In this document: one piece after another, positions 22,470 through 32,624 of the stretch
Position numbering within the stretch: position 1 is the first letter of the stretch
Layout of the letters: the number at the start of each line of letters is the position of its first letter
Source: Cytophagaceae bacterium
GTDB lineage: Bacteria; Bacteroidota; Bacteroidia; Cytophagales; Spirosomataceae
DNA: 36,899 nucleotides
Reading direction: 5' to 3'
Assembly: GCA_947450865.1 (NCBI GenBank)
Contig: CANFWR010000010.1
Span: forward strand, 1-36,899
Translations under genes and position numbers: made by a program
The notes under the pieces: generated by a model
Databases searched by the model: none
Told to the model about the DNA's origin: nothing
What the model saw: only the letters and a program-made list of their open reading frames with translations

Positions 22470-24875
22470 TTAATTTCTGAGTGGTTTACCGCCACCTAAT
22501 AAACTTTGGATTCTGTCCATGGTCTTTTTCTCGCCACATAAAGAAAGGAAAGCCTCTCTTTCTAGGTCGAGTAAATACGTTTCGCTCACGACTTGCGGAG
22601 CGTCTAAATCGCCACCGCAGATCGCGTAGGCTAATTTATTCGCAATTAAGGCATCGTGTTCTGAGATGTAACGTCCCATTAACATGCCTTGGATACCTGC
22701 TTTGAATAGGGCCAAACCTTGTTTTCCCTCCACCCAGACATCGTTGCGTCTCGCTTTTTGGACATATCCTGCGTCTGCTAAGGCCAAAGCCTCTCTTTTC
22801 GCTTCCGATATCACTTGGTTGCGATTCAACACGATGCGATCCTGAGCGCGTAAATAATTCATTTCTCTCGCCTCGTGCGCCGAAGTACTTACGCGCGCAG
22901 TCGCTATATTCATAAAGGCCTCTTGCAAACGGTTCAACTCCACATCGCCTGCACGACGTGCATCGCCCATCCGCAACGCCATCTCTTTCGTTCCACCACC
23001 GGCAGGAATCAAACCGACCCCCACTTCGACTAAACCCATATACAATTCCGCGTGAGCGACAATCTTGTCTGCGTGTAAGTTAATCTCGCAACCTCCGCCT
23101 AGCGCCAATGTATGAGGCGCCACCACTACCGGAATGCCCGAGTAGCGCACGCGCATCATCGTTTCTTGGAAGGTAGCGATCATCGTATTGATGTCGTCAA
23201 ATTTCTGCTCCATTGCGAACATGAACAACATCCCTAGATTCGCACCCGCAGAAAATGCCTCGTTCGACTCGTTTCCGATCACTAAACCTTGGAAATCTTT
23301 TTCCGCCGTTGCGATTGCCTCTTGAATGCCTTCCAGCACGCCTTGGCCCATCGTGTTCATCTTCGAGTGGAATTCTAAACCTAATATGCCATCGCCTAAA
23401 TCCACGATATGCATATCGTCATTTGACGAAACCGTCTTCGTAGGCTTTAAGATCTGCAAATTGATTTGCTTTTCTGCTCCTGCAATCGCTTGGTATTTCT
23501 TGGTTGCGATGTCGTAGAACAAACGCTTACCGCCCTCTACTTTGTAGAAAGTGATATTTCCTGCGGCCACCATCTCGGTTACCCAAGCTGCCGGCGCAAG
23601 ACCTTCTACTTTCATTAATTCGATACCGTTTACAACACCGATGGCATCCCAGGTTTCGAATACTCCCATCTCCCAGCCAAAACCCGCGCAAATCGCTTGG
23701 TCAATTTTGACCAAATCATCTGCAATCTCCGGAATTCGATTCGACGCATAACGGAAACCATCGAGGATGGTTTTGCGGTAGAATTCACCCGCTAAATCTT
23801 TTCCCGCTAATAAAAGCGCGAAGCGATCAGCTAGGTTATCGATCGCTTTCGAGCGATCTAATGTTTCAAAGTTGACTCTTTCCGCAGCGCGGTATTCAAA
23901 GGTGTGTAGATCCAGGCTCAGGATGACCGTCTTGCCTTTTTCGTCTTTGGTCTTCTTATAAAATCCTTGACCCGTTTTGTCGCCCAGCCATTTGTTTTCC
24001 ATCAAACGCTGTAACATCACCGGTAGGTTGAAAATCTCTTTGCTTTCGTCGTTTACTAAAGCTGCCTTTAAATTGTTCGCCACATGAACCGTGGTGTCTA
24101 AACCGACTACATCCGAAAGGCGGAACGTACCCGATTTAGGACGACCTACGACTTTGGACGTTAATTTATCGACTTGCTCTACCGTTAAGCCTAATTCCTC
24201 CACGACTTTCATCGTCTGCATCATCGAATAAACGCCAATGCGGTTGGCGATAAAGGCAGGAGTGTCTTTGCAAAGAACGGCTGTTTTGCCTAATTGCGTT
24301 TCGCCGTAGCCTAACAAGAATTCGATTATCGCTTTGTCCGTTTTAGGACCTGGAATCACTTCGAATAAACGTAGGTAACGAGGAGGGTTGAAGAAGTGGG
24401 TTCCGCAGAAATGTTTTTGAAAATCTTCACTTCTGCCTTCTGACATCAAATGAATCGGAATACCCGATGTATTTGAGGTGACTAGGGTGCCCGGTGTGCG
24501 GAACTTCTCTACCTTTTCGTAGAGCGATTGTTTGATGGCTAGGTTTTCTACGACTACCTCCATGATCCAGTCCGCTGAACTGATTTCCGAAAGGTTGTCA
24601 TCGAAGTTGCCTAGCTTGATGTTATTCGCAAAGCCAGCTGCGTAGAGCGATGCGGGCTTTGCTTTTATAGTTTGTTGAAATGCTGCGTTGACGATTCGGT
24701 TGCGTACCGAAGGGTGTTCTAAACGAAGACCTTTGGCCTCTTCCTCTGGGCTCAAAGTCTGTGGTGCAATGTCCAATAAAAGGACCTGAACCCCAATATT
24801 TGCGAAATGACAGGCTATTCTAGAGCCCATAATTCCTGAGCCTAAAATGGCTACTTTTTTAATGGCACGATTCAT
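22470..24875 (-). CDS. 3-hydroxyacyl-CoA dehydrogenase / enoyl-CoA hydratase (FadN-like)
   Basis: This two-domain beta-oxidation enzyme hydrates enoyl-CoA and oxidises the product with NAD. The start at 24875 (MNRAIKKVAILGSGIMGSRIACHF) gives 801 residues. Domain order is dehydrogenase first: NAD-binding fold with GSGIMGS (about 11-17) and HFFNPPRYLRLFEVIPGPKT, the C-terminal dehydrogenase helices with GQGFYKK, then a hydratase/crotonase domain from about residue 480 (ALGGGCEINLHADKIVAHAELYMGLVEVGVGLIPAGGGTKE). This order is the reverse of E. coli FadB and matches Bacillus FadN. Adjacency to fadA fits the fadN-fadA arrangement. A short palindrome upstream (24926-24937) may be a regulatory site. 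Confidence 0.92.
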   Translation of the reverse strand: MNRAIKKVAILGSGIMGSRIACHFANIGVQVLLLDIAPQTLSPEEEAKGLRLEHPSVRNRIVNAAFQQTIKAKPASLYAAGFANNIKLGNFDDNLSEISSADWIMEVVVENLAIKQSLYEKVEKFRTPGTLVTSNTSGIPIHLMSEGRSEDFQKHFCGTHFFNPPRYLRLFEVIPGPKTDKAIIEFLLGYGETQLGKTAVLCKDTPAFIANRIGVYSMMQTMKVVEELGLTVEQVDKLTSKVVGRPKSGTFRLSDVVGLDTTVHVANNLKAALVNDESKEIFNLPVMLQRLMENKWLGDKTGQGFYKKTKDEKGKTVILSLDLHTFEYRAAERVNFETLDRSKAIDNLADRFALLLAGKDLAGEFYRKTILDGFRYASNRIPEIADDLVKIDQAICAGFGWEMGVFETWDAIGVVNGIELMKVEGLAPAAWVTEMVAAGNITFYKVEGGKRLFYDIATKKYQAIAGAEKQINLQILKPTKTVSSNDDMHIVDLGDGILGLEFHSKMNTMGQGVLEGIQEAIATAEKDFQGLVIGNESNEAFSAGANLGMLFMFAMEQKFDDINTMIATFQETMMRVRYSGIPVVVAPHTLALGGGCEINLHADKIVAHAELYMGLVEVGVGLIPAGGGTKEMALRMGDARRAGDVELNRLQEAFMNIATARVSTSAHEAREMNYLRAQDRIVLNRNQVISEAKREALALADAGYVQKARRNDVWVEGKQGLALFKAGIQGMLMGRYISEHDALIANKLAYAICGGDLDAPQVVSETYLLDLEREAFLSLCGEKKTMDRIQSLLGGGKPLRN

Positions 24876-24954: not shown

Positions 24955-24987
24955 AAAAAGGCGACCGCGCAGCGGTCGCCTTTTTTG
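24955..24987. terminator. Strong bidirectional hairpin terminator between divergent genes
   Basis: The perfect inverted repeat GGCGACCGC-GCA-GCGGTCGCC is flanked by A5 and T6. Both neighbouring genes point away from it, so it has no obvious gene to terminate. The remaining part of the 344-bp gap (24988-25219) holds the left copy of the 62-bp repeat and AT-rich sequence in which I see no gene. Confidence 0.85.
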
Positions 24988-25009
24988 TAAAAGGTCAAGG
25001 CGATCCCAC

Positions 25010-25071
25010 AAGTTGTCTCGTTTCGGATACTACCGAACTTAAGTCGTATCAGAACCGAACCGGTTTAATCT
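25010..25071. repeat. 62-bp direct repeat, left copy
   Basis: It aligns without gaps to 29609-29670 at 45 of 62 positions, best at the right end (ACCGAACC.GTT.AATCT). The short motif TCTCGTGCT occurs about 50 bp further right here, and immediately after the right copy. The two copies bracket the AT-rich VCBS gene pair. Confidence 0.65.
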
Positions 25072-25219
25072 GTTTGATATTTTTAGATTTTCTGAACTCA
25101 TTAAAGTTAATTGAAATCAGTGTCTCGTGCTCTCTTATTTGCTGCCTGTTTACCGTTAAATAAGATTTTAAAATTGATAACTTTTTAGTTAGTAATTTCA
25201 AAATATAAATTAAATTGAA

Positions 25220-27640
25220 ATGAAGAAACTGTTGATATTATTCTTGTTGAGCCCTCTCTTTTCCATTGGGCAAATTCCAATTTTAAATTTCGCAAAGAAC
25301 GTTTTTGATTATGATAAGTCTTTTGACTCATTAGCTACTTCTAAAAACTATTGGAAATATGTAAATCAGTATTTCAATTTTTCTGATTTGAATAAGGATG
25401 GTAAGCTTGATATAGTTATGTCAACCTATACAGATAAAACTCAATCTGGAACACTAAATGTTTTTTATAATCAGAGCACTTCCAGCCAATATATTTTTAA
25501 CAATAAACATAATTTTTTCTACCGTGGCCAAGGTATAAATATTGAAGTTGATGATTTTAATAATGATGGTAAGTTAGATATCTTAGCACCTACACAAGGT
25601 TATCACGGATTAGAATCAAATAAACCACTTGAATATTATCCCACACCTTCAAACTCTGCGAATAACGGTCAAACTCCAGATAAGTTATTTATTCAAAATG
25701 AGAAAGGATTCACAGAATTTACTCAGCCTGATACCTTAGCTACTTTGTCCGGAAAATTTATTGATATTGATGGTGATGGAACACCTGAATGGATAAGTTC
25801 AAATCAAACAATTCCTGCACATTATTACAATGGTAATTTAAATCGATTATGGGTTTATAAACTAAAAAACAACATTTTAGAGCGGAGTTTAATGTTAGAA
25901 GCTGAAATTAGCGAGGATAGGCTTTATTTAGGTTCTTTGAATATTTTAGAAGATAATAAATATTTCTATCTGCCATATACCAAGTATTCGAATGCATTAA
26001 TAAATAATCGGCAAGTCCCCTTATTTCAATATGTATTTAAATATAAAAAAGGTCAATCAAAATATGTAGTAGGAGTAGATTGTGATACGGTTTCTCGAAT
26101 CCCCTTTACGATATTATCAAATAATGGTTTAAACTATTATTATTCTATAAATAATGAGGATGGAATCAAAATTATAGATATAGATAATGATGGAAATTTG
26201 GAAACTTTTGTGATGAGATATACCAATTATTTATCAGGCGATAAACAATGGGTAACCGGAGATCCACCAATCTCTATTTTGCAAGTTTTTGATAAACTGG
26301 GAAACGACGTTACAGATAAATTTATTGAAAAATCATTACAAAGTGATCCGCAAAATTATTTTTCTACCAATGGATTTGAATTAACTGATATCAATGGTGA
26401 TGGGCTTAAAGATATTTTAACAAAAGGTAATTGGGGGTGGTCATATGACTCTAGAAATCCAATTGCAAGAGACAAGAAGTACATTTTACTTAATACCGGC
26501 AAATTTTTCAAAGGGTATTATCTAGATTTAAAATCAGATGCAAATCTTAAAGAATATGAAGGATGGGGAATCCCTATTAATTTGAATCCAGGAAAGCCTA
26601 ATAGTATTTTAGTTGTCTCTTTAGCAAATGGGACTATTGGTCAATCAAATGTACATATTCTTGATCTTGATTTTTCACAATTTAAATTTCCTTGCGAAGC
26701 TAATAAGCCTAATTTGATGTTGGCTGATAATATTGATTTCTGTAGCACATCTGACTCGTTAGTGCTTAAAAGTGGGGCATTAAATGGTATGAGTGTAAAA
26801 TGGTATTCAGGAAGCACATTATTGGGATCGAATCCTGACTTTACTGTAAAATCGAGTGGAACATTTAAAGTTAATGTAACAAATTTAGGTGGGTGTGTGA
26901 ATGAGAAAAATATTGTAGTAACGAAAATAGCTACCCCATCCACTCCCGCCATAACCACTACTACACCCCTAACATTCTGCTCTGGCCAAAATGTAACATT
27001 AACTAGTAGCGGAACAAATAATCAATGGTATCTAAATGGGAATGCCATCGCAAACGCAACAACTACATCGTTTACTGTGAACGCTGCTGGAGCATATAAA
27101 GTGAAGGCTATTAATGGAGATTGCAGTAGTCCATTAAGTGCTGCATCTACTGTAGTAGTCACCCCTATTCCTCCTACACCCACGATTACATTGGAAACGA
27201 ACGGAGGATTAACCTCAAGTGCATCAGACGGGAATCAATGGTATTTCAATGATGTTAAAATTGATAATGCCACGCAGAAAACAATCAATCCTACTAAGAG
27301 TGGTAATTACACTGTTAAGGTTGTTACCCCTTGTGCCAGCGAGGTTAGTAAACCTTATAATCTAGTAGTGACTGCAACAGAGGAGACGATTTTAGGACAA
27401 GTTCAATTATCTCCAAATCCATTCTTGAGCCAATTTAAAGTTAGCTTCCCTGTAGAATTTGGTAAAACGGCTCAAGTCAAAATTGTGGATATGTCCGGAA
27501 ATGTTCAATTCAAAAAGGCATCCGTGATTGATGGAGAGAAAATTGATCTGGGTAATTTAAATGGGGGTAATTACGTCTTGCATTTGAATTCAAATGATAA
27601 TTCGAATTCTAAAGCGATCAAGATTAATAAGACTCATTAA
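25220..27640 (+). CDS. Secreted VCBS/FG-GAP-repeat protein with T9SS type A sorting domain
   Basis: This 806-residue protein has a signal peptide (MKKLLILFLLSPLFSIGQ). The first 480 residues contain calcium-binding, FG-GAP/VCBS-like loops: DLNKDGKLDIVM, DFNNDGKLDILAP, DIDGDGTPEWIS, DIDNDGNLETFV, DINGDGLKDILT, probably one beta-propeller. Three Ig-like segments follow (KSGTFKVNVTNLGGCV, NAAGAYKVKAINGDCS, SGNYTVKVVTPCAS). The C-terminus, from about residue 725 (LGQVQLSPNPFLSQFKVSF...GNYVLHLNSND), is a type A T9SS sorting domain, so it should be released or surface-anchored through the outer membrane. No enzymatic motif is seen; binding or adhesion is a guess. Codon use is more AT-rich than in flanking housekeeping genes, suggesting acquisition or rapid exchange. 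Confidence 0.87.
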   Translation: MKKLLILFLLSPLFSIGQIPILNFAKNVFDYDKSFDSLATSKNYWKYVNQYFNFSDLNKDGKLDIVMSTYTDKTQSGTLNVFYNQSTSSQYIFNNKHNFFYRGQGINIEVDDFNNDGKLDILAPTQGYHGLESNKPLEYYPTPSNSANNGQTPDKLFIQNEKGFTEFTQPDTLATLSGKFIDIDGDGTPEWISSNQTIPAHYYNGNLNRLWVYKLKNNILERSLMLEAEISEDRLYLGSLNILEDNKYFYLPYTKYSNALINNRQVPLFQYVFKYKKGQSKYVVGVDCDTVSRIPFTILSNNGLNYYYSINNEDGIKIIDIDNDGNLETFVMRYTNYLSGDKQWVTGDPPISILQVFDKLGNDVTDKFIEKSLQSDPQNYFSTNGFELTDINGDGLKDILTKGNWGWSYDSRNPIARDKKYILLNTGKFFKGYYLDLKSDANLKEYEGWGIPINLNPGKPNSILVVSLANGTIGQSNVHILDLDFSQFKFPCEANKPNLMLADNIDFCSTSDSLVLKSGALNGMSVKWYSGSTLLGSNPDFTVKSSGTFKVNVTNLGGCVNEKNIVVTKIATPSTPAITTTTPLTFCSGQNVTLTSSGTNNQWYLNGNAIANATTTSFTVNAAGAYKVKAINGDCSSPLSAASTVVVTPIPPTPTITLETNGGLTSSASDGNQWYFNDVKIDNATQKTINPTKSGNYTVKVVTPCASEVSKPYNLVVTATEETILGQVQLSPNPFLSQFKVSFPVEFGKTAQVKIVDMSGNVQFKKASVIDGEKIDLGNLNGGNYVLHLNSNDNSNSKAIKINKTH

Positions 27641-27657
27641 GGTTTGAATGGGTTGAT

Positions 27658-27677
27658 TTTGTTTTAAATAAAACAAA
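27658..27677. repeat. 20-bp palindrome between the two VCBS genes
   Basis: TTTGTTTTAAATAAAACAAA is a perfect inverted repeat (9-bp arms, AA centre), 18 bp after the first stop and 49 bp before the second gene. It is AT-only apart from one G-C pair per arm, so it is a weak terminator or a possible protein-binding site. Confidence 0.4.
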
Positions 27678-27726
27678 TGACCAACTGCAAATTACGTTTA
27701 ATTATAAATTACTTATTCTGAATAGT

Positions 27727-29550
27727 ATGCTAAAGCGAATCTCTGTTCTTGTTATTTCAATTGCTGTTTTCTCTTGTTCCAAGGAGATTATCCAACAAAA
27801 ACTTACGGTAGATTGGACCCCTTTAAACGGAGGCACTGTTTCGCCTCCAACAAATGCCTTTGAAAAAGGTACGGTGGTTTCAATGATTGCTACACCGGCA
27901 GGTGAATATACATTTAAACAATGGAGTGGTAGTTTATCTGGGACGAATAATCCTTCTCCACTTACAATCGATGCGGATAAACAAGTAACTGCTGTATTTG
28001 AAAAACGTCAGTATCCATTATCATTAACGATTGAAGGGAGTGGGATAGTAAAAGAAGAGGTAATTGCATTGGCTACACAATCTCAGTATCCAAGTGGAAC
28101 CAATGTTAAATTGACAGCAATTTCAAATATGGGTTGGGAATTTAAGGAGTGGAAGGGAGATTATATAGGTATTGATTCAAGTTTCATACTGCCTATTAAT
28201 TCAGCTAAAAACGTTACCGCAGTTTTTTCTGAAATCAAAAGCGTTTCATTAAAAATGAATAAAACAACTATAAACTCTAGTGTTTCTGCGCAGAATATTC
28301 AAACAAGCTTTTACAATGTAAGCGGACCTTTTCATTACGAGAGTGATGGAGAACATTATATGTTTTATCCAGGCGCCGTTGGCTACAATGCGAATGCTAA
28401 TATTTCTACGTTTAAAATTGATAATCCTGCTGTACCCTCTCAGGTTTTAAAAAGGATAAATGGTAAATGGGAGCATTTTAAAGATGATGAAACCATTAAG
28501 TTTTGGAATGCCAGAAATTTTGAAATCATAGATAAATATGTTGCTATTGGAGATGGTAATGAAATTGGTGTTAGACCTCAGGATTGGAAAGGAGATACCT
28601 ATTTTGGCGAAATACAATCTAAAGGAAATATTAAATGGACTAAAGTTAATGATTCTCAAAATCAAGGATATTTTCATGGAACTGCTCTAGGGGATATTAA
28701 TAACGACGGTTTAATGGACACTGGTGGAACTCCTGGTGTACAAGGAAATGGTCCAAGTGGTATGAGATTTTTTACTCAAAATCCCGCGGGAGGTTTTGAG
28801 GTAGAAAATGAAATATTTGATATCACTCAAGATATGACTTACCCTTTTACATTTAACTTTTCAAATGTTGTGGGAGATAAAAGAGCAGAAGTTATAATGG
28901 CAGATTATGGCGGAGGTGATCCATTGACTACTAAACATCTAAATGGAATTAGTGTTTATAAATTTGATGAAACCTTGAATAAATTTAAACTTTATTGGGA
29001 ATCCAAAAACCCAACTGCTTTTTTTAAAAAGGGGATGGGTGCCACATCCATCAAGGTAGATGATTTTGATAACGATGGAATTAAAGATATCAGCGTAGCA
29101 AGGGAGGATGGTGACGCCTTAAACCAATACAATGCATTTGAAATTTGGAAAGGGAAAGGGGATGGTTCTTATATTCCTTTATTTAGCTCCCCTGTTTGGA
29201 ACGATAAGCAATTACAATTTAGGGAATTTTGGGTTTTGGATGTTAACCAAGATGGGTATATGGATATTATATTAAGGCCCTTTCATTATGGTAATTTGTA
29301 TAGACTAAACGATGGTTGTACCAATCCTATGCAATGCAACGGAATAAGGTTTAATCATTTAATTTGGTTAAACAAGGGTGATGGAACGTTTGATTATTAT
29401 AAAAAGGAAGATTTGCGATATGAGGGGATATATATAGATAATGTACATCCTTACATGGATGGTAAAACCCTACACTTTGTTGGGACTTATACCTTAAATG
29501 GGAATATCAAAGAACTAACTACATATGATTTTAAAGTTTTATTAAAATAA
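27727..29550 (+). CDS. Lipoprotein with InlB-type B-repeats and VCBS repeats
   Basis: This 607-residue protein has a lipoprotein signal peptide ending AVFSC (Cys17), so it should be a lipid-anchored envelope protein. Two divergent InlB B-repeat domains follow (about 24-90 and 95-170): LTVDWTPLNGGTVSPP...FKQWSG...KQVTAVFE and LSLTIEGSGIVKEE...FKEWKGDY...KNVTAVFSE. The remainder has FG-GAP/VCBS-type loops, DINNDGLMDTGG, DDFDNDGIKDIS and DVNQDGYMDIIL, probably in a beta-propeller. No catalytic motif is recognised. The same propeller-like loops occur in the upstream T9SS-secreted protein 86 bp away, so the pair may bind related ligands or each other (inference). Like its neighbour it is markedly AT-rich. 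Confidence 0.85.
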   Translation: MLKRISVLVISIAVFSCSKEIIQQKLTVDWTPLNGGTVSPPTNAFEKGTVVSMIATPAGEYTFKQWSGSLSGTNNPSPLTIDADKQVTAVFEKRQYPLSLTIEGSGIVKEEVIALATQSQYPSGTNVKLTAISNMGWEFKEWKGDYIGIDSSFILPINSAKNVTAVFSEIKSVSLKMNKTTINSSVSAQNIQTSFYNVSGPFHYESDGEHYMFYPGAVGYNANANISTFKIDNPAVPSQVLKRINGKWEHFKDDETIKFWNARNFEIIDKYVAIGDGNEIGVRPQDWKGDTYFGEIQSKGNIKWTKVNDSQNQGYFHGTALGDINNDGLMDTGGTPGVQGNGPSGMRFFTQNPAGGFEVENEIFDITQDMTYPFTFNFSNVVGDKRAEVIMADYGGGDPLTTKHLNGISVYKFDETLNKFKLYWESKNPTAFFKKGMGATSIKVDDFDNDGIKDISVAREDGDALNQYNAFEIWKGKGDGSYIPLFSSPVWNDKQLQFREFWVLDVNQDGYMDIILRPFHYGNLYRLNDGCTNPMQCNGIRFNHLIWLNKGDGTFDYYKKEDLRYEGIYIDNVHPYMDGKTLHFVGTYTLNGNIKELTTYDFKVLLK

Positions 29551-29608
29551 ATTCCAAAAGTAAACCTAATCCCCCAAAATCAATAAATCTACTCATGTAA
29601 CGTTGCTG

Positions 29609-29670
29609 AAGTTGAATCATTTCATATACTAACGAATATTGATTGACTCAAAACCGAACCAGTTAAATCT
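29609..29670. repeat. 62-bp direct repeat, right copy
   Basis: Colinear partner of 25010-25071 (45 of 62 identical, no gaps). It starts 58 bp after the lipoprotein stop and lies 38 bp before the terminator at 29709. The 227-bp gap 29551-29777 holds only this repeat and that terminator. Confidence 0.65.
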
Positions 29671-29708
29671 CCCATCTCGTGCTACCCACTCTTCCAATCT
29701 ATCCCTAA

Positions 29709-29746
29709 ACTAAAGAAACCACCTCAATCGAGGTGGTTTCTTTAGT
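29709..29746. terminator. Perfect 17-bp-stem bidirectional terminator
   Basis: ACTAAAGAAACCACCTC, loop AATC, then its exact reverse complement. It lies between the convergent ends of the lipoprotein gene and gcvP. The lower stem supplies T-rich tracts in both directions, so it can serve both genes. Confidence 0.85.
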
Positions 29747-29777
29747 CCCAATAGGTTCCCCCTATAAGAATTAATAA

Positions 29778-32624
29778 TTACATATAACTCTCCATCGGCT
29801 CGCAAGCACAAACCAAGTTACGATCTCCATAAGCGGAGTCGATACGAGATACCGTAGGCCAAAACTTGTTCGCCTTCACATACGCCAGCGGGAATACCGC
29901 TTTCTCGCGTGAGTAAGGACGATCCCAATCACCTAGTAAAACGGCTGATTGTGTATGTGGAGCGTGCTTTAAAACGTTGTTTGCTTTGTCCGCTTTTCCT
30001 TCTTCGATCTCACGAATCTCTGCACGAATGCTCAAAAGCGCATCGCAGAAACGATCTAACTCGTCTTTATTCTCTGATTCTGTAGGCTCGATCATCAACG
30101 TTCCAGCTACAGGGAATGAAAGAGTAGGAGCGTGGAAACCATAATCCATTAAGCGTTTCGCGATATCTTCGGCCTCTACGCCAGCGGATAATTTGAACGG
30201 ACGGCAATCCACGATCATCTCGTGTGCGCAACGTCCTTGTGAACCGGTATATAGGATAGGGAATTCTTTTTCCAAACGCGCCTTGATGTAGTTCGCGTTT
30301 AAGATCGCCGTTTCTGTCGCAGTCGTTAAACCTTTGCCGCCCATCATCGCGATGTAAGCGTAAGAGATCGCCAAAATACTCGCAGACCCAACTGGAGCCG
30401 CAGAAACCGCACCCGAAGTTCCGTCATGTACGTGACCTGGTAAGAAAGGAACTAACTGTGGCGCTACGCCGATAGGTCCCATGCCTGGGCCACCACCTCC
30501 GTGAGGGATACAGAAAGTTTTGTGCAAGTTCAAGTGACAAACGTCCGCTCCGATGCGCGCAGGAGATGTTAAACCTACCTGTGCGTTCATGTTCGCGCCG
30601 TCCATATACACTTGACCTCCATTTTCGTGGATGATTTCACAAATTTCTTGGATGGTTTCTTCGAATACCCCGTGGGTACTTGGGTAGGTAACCATTAAGC
30701 AAGAGAGGTTGTCTTTGTGTTCCAAAGCTTTGGCCTTCAAATCAGCCACGTCAATATTTCCATTCGCATCGCAAGGGGAAACAATCACCTTCATTCCAGC
30801 CATAACAGCTGATGCCGGGTTCGTTCCGTGCGCAGAAGACGGAATGATGGCAATGTTACGGTGGTGATCGCCGCGTGAAGCATGATACGCACGAATGGTC
30901 ATCAAACCAGCGTATTCGCCTTGTGCTCCCGAGTTCGGTTGCATGGACATTTTTGCGAAACCAGTGATTTCACATAACCACTCATTCAAGTCCTCTACTA
31001 ATTGCTGGTAGCCTTTCGTTTGAGAAGCCGGAGCGAATGGGTGAATCTTGCCTAATTCTGGCCAAGTCACCGGAATCATTTCGGTTGTCGCATTCAATTT
31101 CATCGTACAAGAACCCAACGAAATCATCGAATGAACCATCGATAAATCTTTTGACTCTAATGATTTCAAATAACGCAACATTCCGTGCTCGGAATGGTAT
31201 TTATTGAAAACGCTGTGCGTTAAGAAAGTAGACGTTCGCGTTAATGCCGCTGGGATGGCCCAAGTAACATTTTTCTCTGAAGTTTTCGCGCCTTTCAATG
31301 TCTCGAAGAATGAGATGATTTCGATTACGTCTGCTTCTTGCGTCGTCTCATCCAAAGAGATGCTCGTCGTAGTTGCCGTGTAACGTAAGTTACGTTCTGC
31401 TTTTTCTGCCAAAACACGTAAGTCCGCCGTTTGCGCTCCCGTTTCGATTGTAAGCGTATCGAAGTGGTTCGTGTTTTCTAAGGTAAATCCTAGTTTGCGT
31501 AAGTTAACCGCTAGTAATTCCGTCAAGCCATATACTTTTTCGGCGATTTTCTTCAAGCCTGTTGGGCCATGGTAGATCGCGTATGAAGCCGCCATGATGG
31601 AAAGCAATACTTGCGCCGTACAGATGTTAGACGTGGCTTTTTCGCGGCGAATGTGTTGCTCACGTGTTTGAAGAGCCATACGTAAAGCACGGTTTCCTTC
31701 TGCATCCACCGAAACACCGATGATACGTCCTGGAATATTACGCTTGTATTTTTCTTTCGTTGCGAAGAAGCCGGCGTGTGGACCACCAAAACCCATCGGT
31801 ACCCCGAAGCGTTGGGAAACACCCACGACCGCATCAGCTCCCATTTCTCCTGGAGGCGTTAATAAAGTCAAGGCTAATAAATCCGCTGCGACTACGACTT
31901 GTAAGCCGTTTTCTTTCGCTGCTGCGATTAAAGCGCTATAATCAAATACCTCGCCGTTCGAAGCAGGGTATTGTAACATCATTCCGTAGAAACGCGCGTC
32001 CGTCACGTCGAAGGTGCGGTGATCGCCCACCACGATTTCGATGCCAATCGGTTCTGCACGCGTTTTTAATAAGTCAATGGTTTGCGGTAAGCATAATTCA
32101 GACACAAAATACGCTTCTGCGCTGTTGCGTTCTGCTGGTCTTTGGCCATATAACATCGTCATGGCTTCCGCTGCTGCTGTTCCTTCATCTAAAAGGGACG
32201 CGTTGGCTAATTCCATGCCGGTTAAGTCGATGATCATCGTTTGGTAGTTCAATAACATTTCCAAACGACCTTGTGCGATTTCCGCTTGGTAGGGCGTGTA
32301 AGCCGTGTACCAAGAAGGATTTTCTAAAATATTTCTCAAAATGACCGTCGGCACAATCGTGTCCGAGTAACCTAAACCGATGTGTGATTTGAAGATCTGG
32401 TTTTGGCCCATTACTGCTTTAAAATCACGTAAGAAAGCGAATTCTGATTTCGGTTCTGGCAAGCGAAGCCCTTGAGCTAAGCGAATTTTTTCAGGAACAG
32501 TTTGTTGAATTAGTGTCTCTAAGCTGTCTACTCCAATGGTTTTTAGCATAGCGGCTATATCAGCTGCTTCAGCATTGTTATGACGTAAAGAAAAGTCTTC
32601 CTGATAAGTGTAATTTGGGGTCAT
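29778..32624 (-). CDS. gcvP: Glycine dehydrogenase (decarboxylating), P-protein
   Basis: GcvP is the PLP-dependent P-protein of the glycine cleavage system. It decarboxylates glycine and passes the aminomethyl group to the lipoyl arm of the H-protein, feeding one-carbon metabolism. At 948 residues it is the fused single-chain form. Landmarks are [45 protein letters not shown] near the start, the [10 protein letters not shown] motif, [19 protein letters not shown], and the PLP lysine in [24 protein letters not shown] (near residue 695). gcvT and gcvH are not in the window, so the cleavage system genes are dispersed. A TAAATTTG -7 box is 32 bp upstream of the ATG; no glycine riboswitch is apparent in the short leader. 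Confidence 0.97.

Follow-up and report, generated by a model that had tools for sequence, protein, structure and literature searches.

A probable integrase-less cassette in the gcvP-fadN spacer of an Aquirufa genome, with boundary elements whose core resembles the 3′ end of tRNA-Val(UAC)

Short pairs of direct repeats serve as the arm-type sites of bivalent tyrosine recombinases of the Tn916 and CTnDOT type, and the spacing in Tn916 DR2 is near 12 bp. A tyrosine recombinase also moves the tycheposons, which are tRNA-linked carriers of cargo. Tycheposons are described as 4-200 kb elements with a xerD-type recombinase, and freshwater Methylophilaceae have additive flexible islands of variable, small gene content in which the last 20 bp of a tRNA-Lys gene recur (PMC10872708). 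CIMEs keep attL and attR, are without integration genes of their own, accrete in tandem at one target gene and are moved by a related element; they are described as decayed ICEs or IMEs, usually with one or two per tandem (PMC5704250). The ssrA islands of Dehalococcoides lie in tandem downstream of a stable-RNA gene with copies of its 3′ end between them, and many have no integration module (PMC3146451). Integrons are reportedly very rare in Bacteroidota, with one complete case described in Salinibacter (PMC9024848).

The window considered here, a stretch of 36,899 nucleotides, is contig C10 of an Aquirufa genome in 177 contigs. Between its fadN and gcvP genes is a module of about 4.75 kb (Table 1) that is probably an integrase-less cassette, inserted in trans at a secondary site by a bivalent tyrosine recombinase that would normally target tRNA-Val(UAC). 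Like a CIME, the module is flanked by an attL (host, core, P′) and an attR (P, core, host) and has neither integrase nor transfer genes. In contrast to CIMEs as described, Aquirufa has up to a dozen short cassettes per genome with no visible ICE remains, some of them at secondary sites that are not tRNA genes. The Dehalococcoides islands involve a serine recombinase and tmRNA, in place of the tyrosine integrase and tRNA-Val that we infer for Aquirufa, where in addition paired arm motifs flank the core and a terminator is held in common. As in the tRNA-anchored additive islands, Aquirufa units are divided by tRNA-Val 3′ ends and their cargo varies between strains and species; the Methylophilaceae differ in phylum and in the tRNA, and in the available portion of their description neither an arm-type boundary element nor an integrase assignment is reported (PMC10872708). 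Unlike tycheposons, the Aquirufa cassettes are short and lack a recombinase, the window module included, and unlike Tn916 and CTnDOT the target is a tRNA 3′ end and the mobile units have no transfer genes. Site-specific accretion is known; what distinguishes the Aquirufa case, on a reading of the sequences, is its regularity, its genus-wide occurrence and a boundary element that would bring with it both arms and a tRNA terminator.

The original prediction for this locus was of a direct repeat bracketing two AT-rich genes for exported FG-GAP proteins, with neither an integrase nor a transposase, and each part of it is borne out. The segments 25010-25071 and 29609-29670 are identical at 45 of 62 positions without a gap, and the best ungapped score of flank against flank is 28, compared with 9.96 ± 1.34 and a maximum of 16 in 400 dinucleotide shuffles, so the alignment is clearly better than that of shuffled sequence. 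Only two open reading frames are present between the repeats, the Pfam matches of both include FG-GAP, and the GC content of the module is 0.28-0.40 against about 0.45 on both sides. No gene for an integrase, transposase, other recombinase or transfer function is inside. The C-terminal part of the gene A product is 56-68% identical to two proteins encoded to the left of a tRNA-Val island in another Aquirufa genome, G007. The N-terminus of the gene B product, judged by eye, is lipoprotein-like (CSK), and the first 390 bp of gene B are 90% identical to a gene behind the same arm in G007. The flanks are the fadN and gcvP sides of the host locus, and the window FadN shares 99% identity with its counterpart in A. 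antheringensis 30S-ANTBAC.

Table 1. Features of the module and its host flanks, in window coordinates
Feature	Position	Strand	Evidence
fadN-type 3-hydroxyacyl-CoA dehydrogenase, left host flank	22470..24872	-	Pfam 3HCDH_N, 3HCDH, ECH_1; neighbour of gcvP in ~28 Aquirufa loci
Terminator hairpin belonging to the host gcvP-fadN spacer, staying on the fadN side of the insert	24955..24985	.	Perfect inverted repeat; same in empty sites of G013 and G015
Putative attL core GGCGATCCCACAAG, host GGCGA plus core TCCCA	~24999..25012	+	Position-wise match to GTGGTCCCACTAG in homologous elements; joined flanks align to empty site
Cassette P′ arm, its first 62 bp being the left repeat	25010..25145	+	130.1 bits with model R1 (a training sequence of R1); homologues in G007, G025, G036 and arrays
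Candidate P′ arm-type site, TGCT at 25128 and 25140, 12 bp apart	25126..25145	+	Spacing as in the majority of boundary elements, for P and P′ alike
Cargo gene A (806 aa product), FG-GAP protein exported and bearing a T9SS sorting tail	25220..27640	+	FG-GAP_3, Por_Secre_tail
Cargo gene B, lipoprotein-like, InlB B-repeats and FG-GAP, 607 aa	27727..29550	+	Flg_new_2, FG-GAP_3
Truncated second P′ arm copy (model positions 12-73), the right repeat	29609..29670	+	Found genome-wide at 30.3 bits, E = 7.6e-7, by a model built without the right copy
P arm motif CTCGTGCTACCCACTC, in which a single TGCT of the two is intact	29676..29691	+	Same motif at tRNA-Val of G000:C109 and G007 and in cassettes
Cassette-borne terminator hairpin of tRNA-Val terminator type	29709..29746	.	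Perfect inverted repeat; matches tRNA-Val hairpin in related genomes
Putative attR core AGTCCCAATAG (compare GGTCCCACTAG); host from about 29755	29744..29754	+	Flanks joined at 25011/29755 align to empty site of G015
gcvP, glycine dehydrogenase, right host flank	29778..32624	-	Pfam GDC-P, GcvP2_C

Far from being conserved in place, the two genes are absent from this spacer in relatives: in about 25 of the Aquirufa loci compared, gcvP directly neighbours fadN, with no homologue of A or B between them. The empty spacer is about 135-235 bp long, with the window as the exception, and the window flanks, once joined, can be aligned through the insertion point with the empty site of G015. The left hairpin belongs to the host, because it is present in empty sites, and the right one arrived with the insert. 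Terminators had been predicted just outside each repeat, and the hairpins are indeed present, but as one is host sequence and the other is on the cargo side they are not symmetrical about the module. Empty sites with a single repeat had also been envisaged; such sites exist, but the 62-bp repeat is absent from them and they carry only a short core-like GATCCCA in the gcvP terminator. Two genomes of other species, G024 and G008, have different cassettes at the gcvP terminator with an identical right junction, GGGGTCCCACTAG followed directly by GACCGCC, where the empty site reads GGCGATCCCAAGGGACCGCC; at the left junction in G024 the recognisable P′ arm has been lost. This makes the gcvP terminator a recurrent secondary site. 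The window represents a third, independent-looking filling of the spacer, and three genomes have inserts in the gcvP-fadN spacer with a core at the junction. The suggestion of an exchangeable cassette is thereby upheld, by empty and alternately filled sites. That the repeat pair is instead an immobile, ordinary leftover, for instance of a duplicated regulatory region, would suit the truncation of the right copy and the degeneracy of both cores; with the module missing in relatives, the element recurring at unrelated loci and the gcvP site filled by other cassettes, it is a very improbable explanation.

Inserts of 1.7-1.8 kb with a Fic-like ORF of about 327 aa are present in the same spacer of two further Aquirufa genomes (L020:8302-10001 and L025:4486-6290). 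No arm or core was found in them, and for that reason they are not counted among the cassettes; insertions of several kinds may therefore favour this spacer.

An element of ~147 bp (24999-25145), common to G007, G036 and G025, opens with the left repeat, and when the genus was searched with the right repeat plus flanking sequence, homologues came up in the same three genomes, with the flank CTCGTGCTACCC recurring nearby. The 147-bp element starts with GTGGTCCCACTAG. This is the tRNA-Val(UAC) 3′ end, and the tRNA gene is on the minus strand in G000:C109 and G007. Repeats of this tRNA-Val 3′ end, the core GGTCCCA..AG (TGGTGGTCCCA..AG), separate units from each other. To the left of the core, cassettes have CTCGTGCTACC..TTTGCTACC and a hairpin, and the same sequence is found at the tRNA-Val 3′ end. 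The hairpin type is clade-specific, being common to the cassettes and the tRNA-Val of one clade, and this can be read as the cassette supplying the tRNA with a terminator. A full boundary element is ~250 bp and consists of a P arm, the core and a P′ arm. Both arms contain a pair of TGCT motifs with a spacing of 12 bp, and in the P arm the pair is followed by the terminator hairpin. Of the 21 aligned elements, 17 have the pair at exactly 12 bp in P and 14 have it in P′. In 0.55 Mb of loci chosen for their elements, where related sequences inflate the count, the pair pattern occurs 50 times and its reversal not at all. The TGCT pairs are candidate arm-type binding sites of the recombinase.

The resemblance to sedentary integrons of same-orientation arrays of promiscuous cassettes with toxin-antitoxin genes brings up the possibility of true integrons in which the boundary element would play the part of attC. 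An attC-type fold is not apparent, as folding of boundary elements is no better than that of shuffles (z 0.11 and -0.33), and the motif pairs are direct and not inverted. With the core being the end of a tRNA gene, cassettes containing up to several genes in either orientation, an integrase family of Phage_int_SAM_5 architecture and no IntI identified in a search with PF00589, there is very little chance that these are integrons. What the Aquirufa arrays have in common with integrons is same-orientation rows of exchangeable cassettes; they differ in having neither attC fold nor attI, in their multi-gene cassettes and in a double-stranded att anatomy with arms. Consensus RNA folding of the boundary element is weak and its Rfam matches are to tRNA only.

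Most copies of the boundary element have an AT palindrome, CGTTTAAATTTAAACAAA, just left of the P arm and a related one, TTTGTTTTATTTAAAATGAAAT, just right of the P′ arm; a promoter, an operator or a host-factor site is possible. The P′ arm was considered, by eye, as the C-terminus of a protein, and this was dropped as the frame is broken in G036. A P′ arm with a perfect core in the same genome (G036:C2, L131:10209-10354) is behind a hairpin that is not of the tRNA-Val type, and here too a terminator may have served as a secondary integration site; about 8 kb further right is a pair of IS3-like transposase genes.

Compared with the full element, the module in the window has host, core and P′ at its left end and P, terminator, core and host at its right. 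The boundary sequence originally predicted to be recurrent does recur, but recombination would not take place at the ends of the 62-bp repeats: the left one is an arm beside the core and the right one a truncated internal copy. There is a boundary, but its true ends are core-like sites outside the repeats, at about 24999-25012 and 29744-29754. The right repeat, a P′ fragment running straight into the P arm, looks like what is left of a cassette that lost its contents. Because the window cores are degenerate (GATCCCACAAG and AGTCCCAATAG) and the P arm retains one of its two TGCT motifs, the window copy may be dead at present, as far as activity can be judged from such features.

Matches elsewhere were sought with models of the P′ arm, R1 (sequence-only) and R2 (wider), and a 22-row alignment was used in model building. 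With R2 and a cut-off of 1e-4 there are about 84 matches in 19 of 38 Aquirufa genomes, the richest (G001, G004, G029 and G030) having 10-12 each, and many are in arrays of the same orientation, such as seven copies in G001:C9 and four or five in G030:C21. The genome of the window itself has further copies, on C38 and C30, which were seen because a genus-wide search and a profile were used; a plain DNA search of this genome with either repeat gave no convincing extra copy. Many copies flanking different exported-protein genes, as had been foreseen, are present in sister genomes. Outside the genus, no match was found at 1e-6 in an order sample of 195 genomes, own genome excepted, with filters of a stringency that can lose weak matches, and a viral collection had no match for the P arm pattern or the integrase. 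Several boundary copies are at contig ends, as expected since repeats break assemblies.

Some arrays are anchored at tRNA-Val, with insertion exact at the 3′ end of the tRNA. The order in G030:C105 is P-core-P′, one gene and P-core-tRNA-Val, with GGTGGTCCCACTAG at both ends, and in G025 an 8.9-kb island between two cores adjoins tRNA-Val. A protein of 429 aa with Phage_int_SAM_5 and Phage_integrase domains, and with a small HTH_17 neighbour, is encoded near tRNA-Val in G000:C109 and G033 and inside an arm-bounded island in G007. An integrase 46% identical, in G012, ends 6 bp before an arm pair, which is followed by terminator, core and tRNA-Val. The match of the integrase to the arm-binding domain PF17293 (E 0.077) is below cut-off. 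The recombinase acting on the cassettes would be of a family like the 429-aa protein of G000:C109. In G007 the arm-bounded island at tRNA-Val bears the integrase, whereas the gcvP site of the window is without an integrase-bearing tandem partner.

No recombinase was seen beside the arrays that were read, and the search with PF00589 gave mainly Xer-type proteins: above cut-off there are only two, both Xer-type, in G004, G029 and G030, and one in G009 and G027 (less complete). As several array-rich genomes show only Xer-type recombinases, the mover would be lost, missed or external. XerCD, the sole recombinases seen in some array-rich genomes, were considered for this role and are possible, but Xer proteins are not known to use arm-type sites. 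The several array-rich genomes without an obvious integrase, together with boundary elements long and similar enough for partial pairing and cassettes reshuffled between arrays, would also fit movement by homologous recombination between the dispersed ~250-bp boundary repeats with no site-specific enzyme now involved. This is unlikely: empty gcvP sites offer no boundary element for pairing, yet three genomes have inserts there with the core at the junction, and at tRNA-Val insertion is exact at the tRNA 3′ end. Of the two means of movement originally proposed, a factor in trans is thus the likely one, and homologous recombination at the repeats is not needed but may add shuffling.

Beside the same tRNA-Val core in G016:C2 (L177:3848-5216) there is a second integrase family, with other tandem motifs (TTGTACC) nearby; in G016 and G017 this family seems to use the core with other tandem arm motifs (TTGTACCTATGTTGTACC). 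A hybrid-looking case is G000:C38 (L143), where the core has a hairpin of the second type on its left and, on its right, the P′ arm known from the first type. A core that is kept while the arms differ with the enzyme is what the site-specific model expects.

In that model a bivalent tyrosine recombinase with the 3′ end of tRNA-Val(UAC) as its normal target would act in trans on a cassette. Joining of a cassette to tRNA-Val would leave P-core beside the tRNA and so provide the tRNA with a terminator, and further cassettes would add in tandem, each internal boundary then being P-core-P′. A cassette could also enter the gcvP-fadN spacer, using the gcvP terminator or its immediate surroundings as a secondary site. 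Insertion of a circular intermediate would give host, core and P′ on the left and P, terminator, core and host on the right, which is the arrangement in the window; both the circular form and the direction of movement are suggested by this arrangement of parts.

More tentatively, and with somewhat less than even confidence, Aquirufa may possess, across the genus, a cassette system with the function of an integron, in which a tRNA-Val-targeting bivalent integrase and a double-stranded boundary with arm sites and terminator allow toxin-antitoxin, defence and surface cassettes to be stacked, moved to terminators and exchanged between species. No description of a Bacteroidota version was found, the Aquirufa papers listed by one search being, by title, species descriptions and community surveys. 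If the model holds, common freshwater bacteria would stockpile and swap accessory genes by a tool that is not an integron. Short gene sets without a mobility gene behind housekeeping genes would also be explained, by use of a tRNA-end look-alike in a terminator. As the cassettes are short and regular and can be found automatically by a boundary model, a catalogue of the genus's flexible genes is within reach, and the existence of culturable Aquirufa strains makes the mechanism testable.

Counting ORFs of 100 aa or more, the segments between boundaries have between none and eight, which run in both orientations, and the cargo differs array by array. It includes HipA with an HTH partner, two Fic proteins, a zeta-toxin-like protein, a carbon-nitrogen hydrolase and T9SS exports, and one cassette, in G025, encodes a 1686-aa TmtA-like protein and a helicase with a PIN domain. 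Shared cassettes occur in changed order: those for HipBA, Fic370 and Fic366 are 95-98% identical between genomes and their neighbouring cassettes differ. An empty cassette is seen in G027:C106:4714-5311 (L146), where 308 bp without an ORF separate two boundaries. The tRNA-Val island of G007 (L128, L129; 697.8-726.7 kb) has genes for an SspA/DndA-type cysteine desulfurase, a WYL regulator and a helicase, along with restriction-like and other defence-like genes and, besides the integrase, a serine resolvase.
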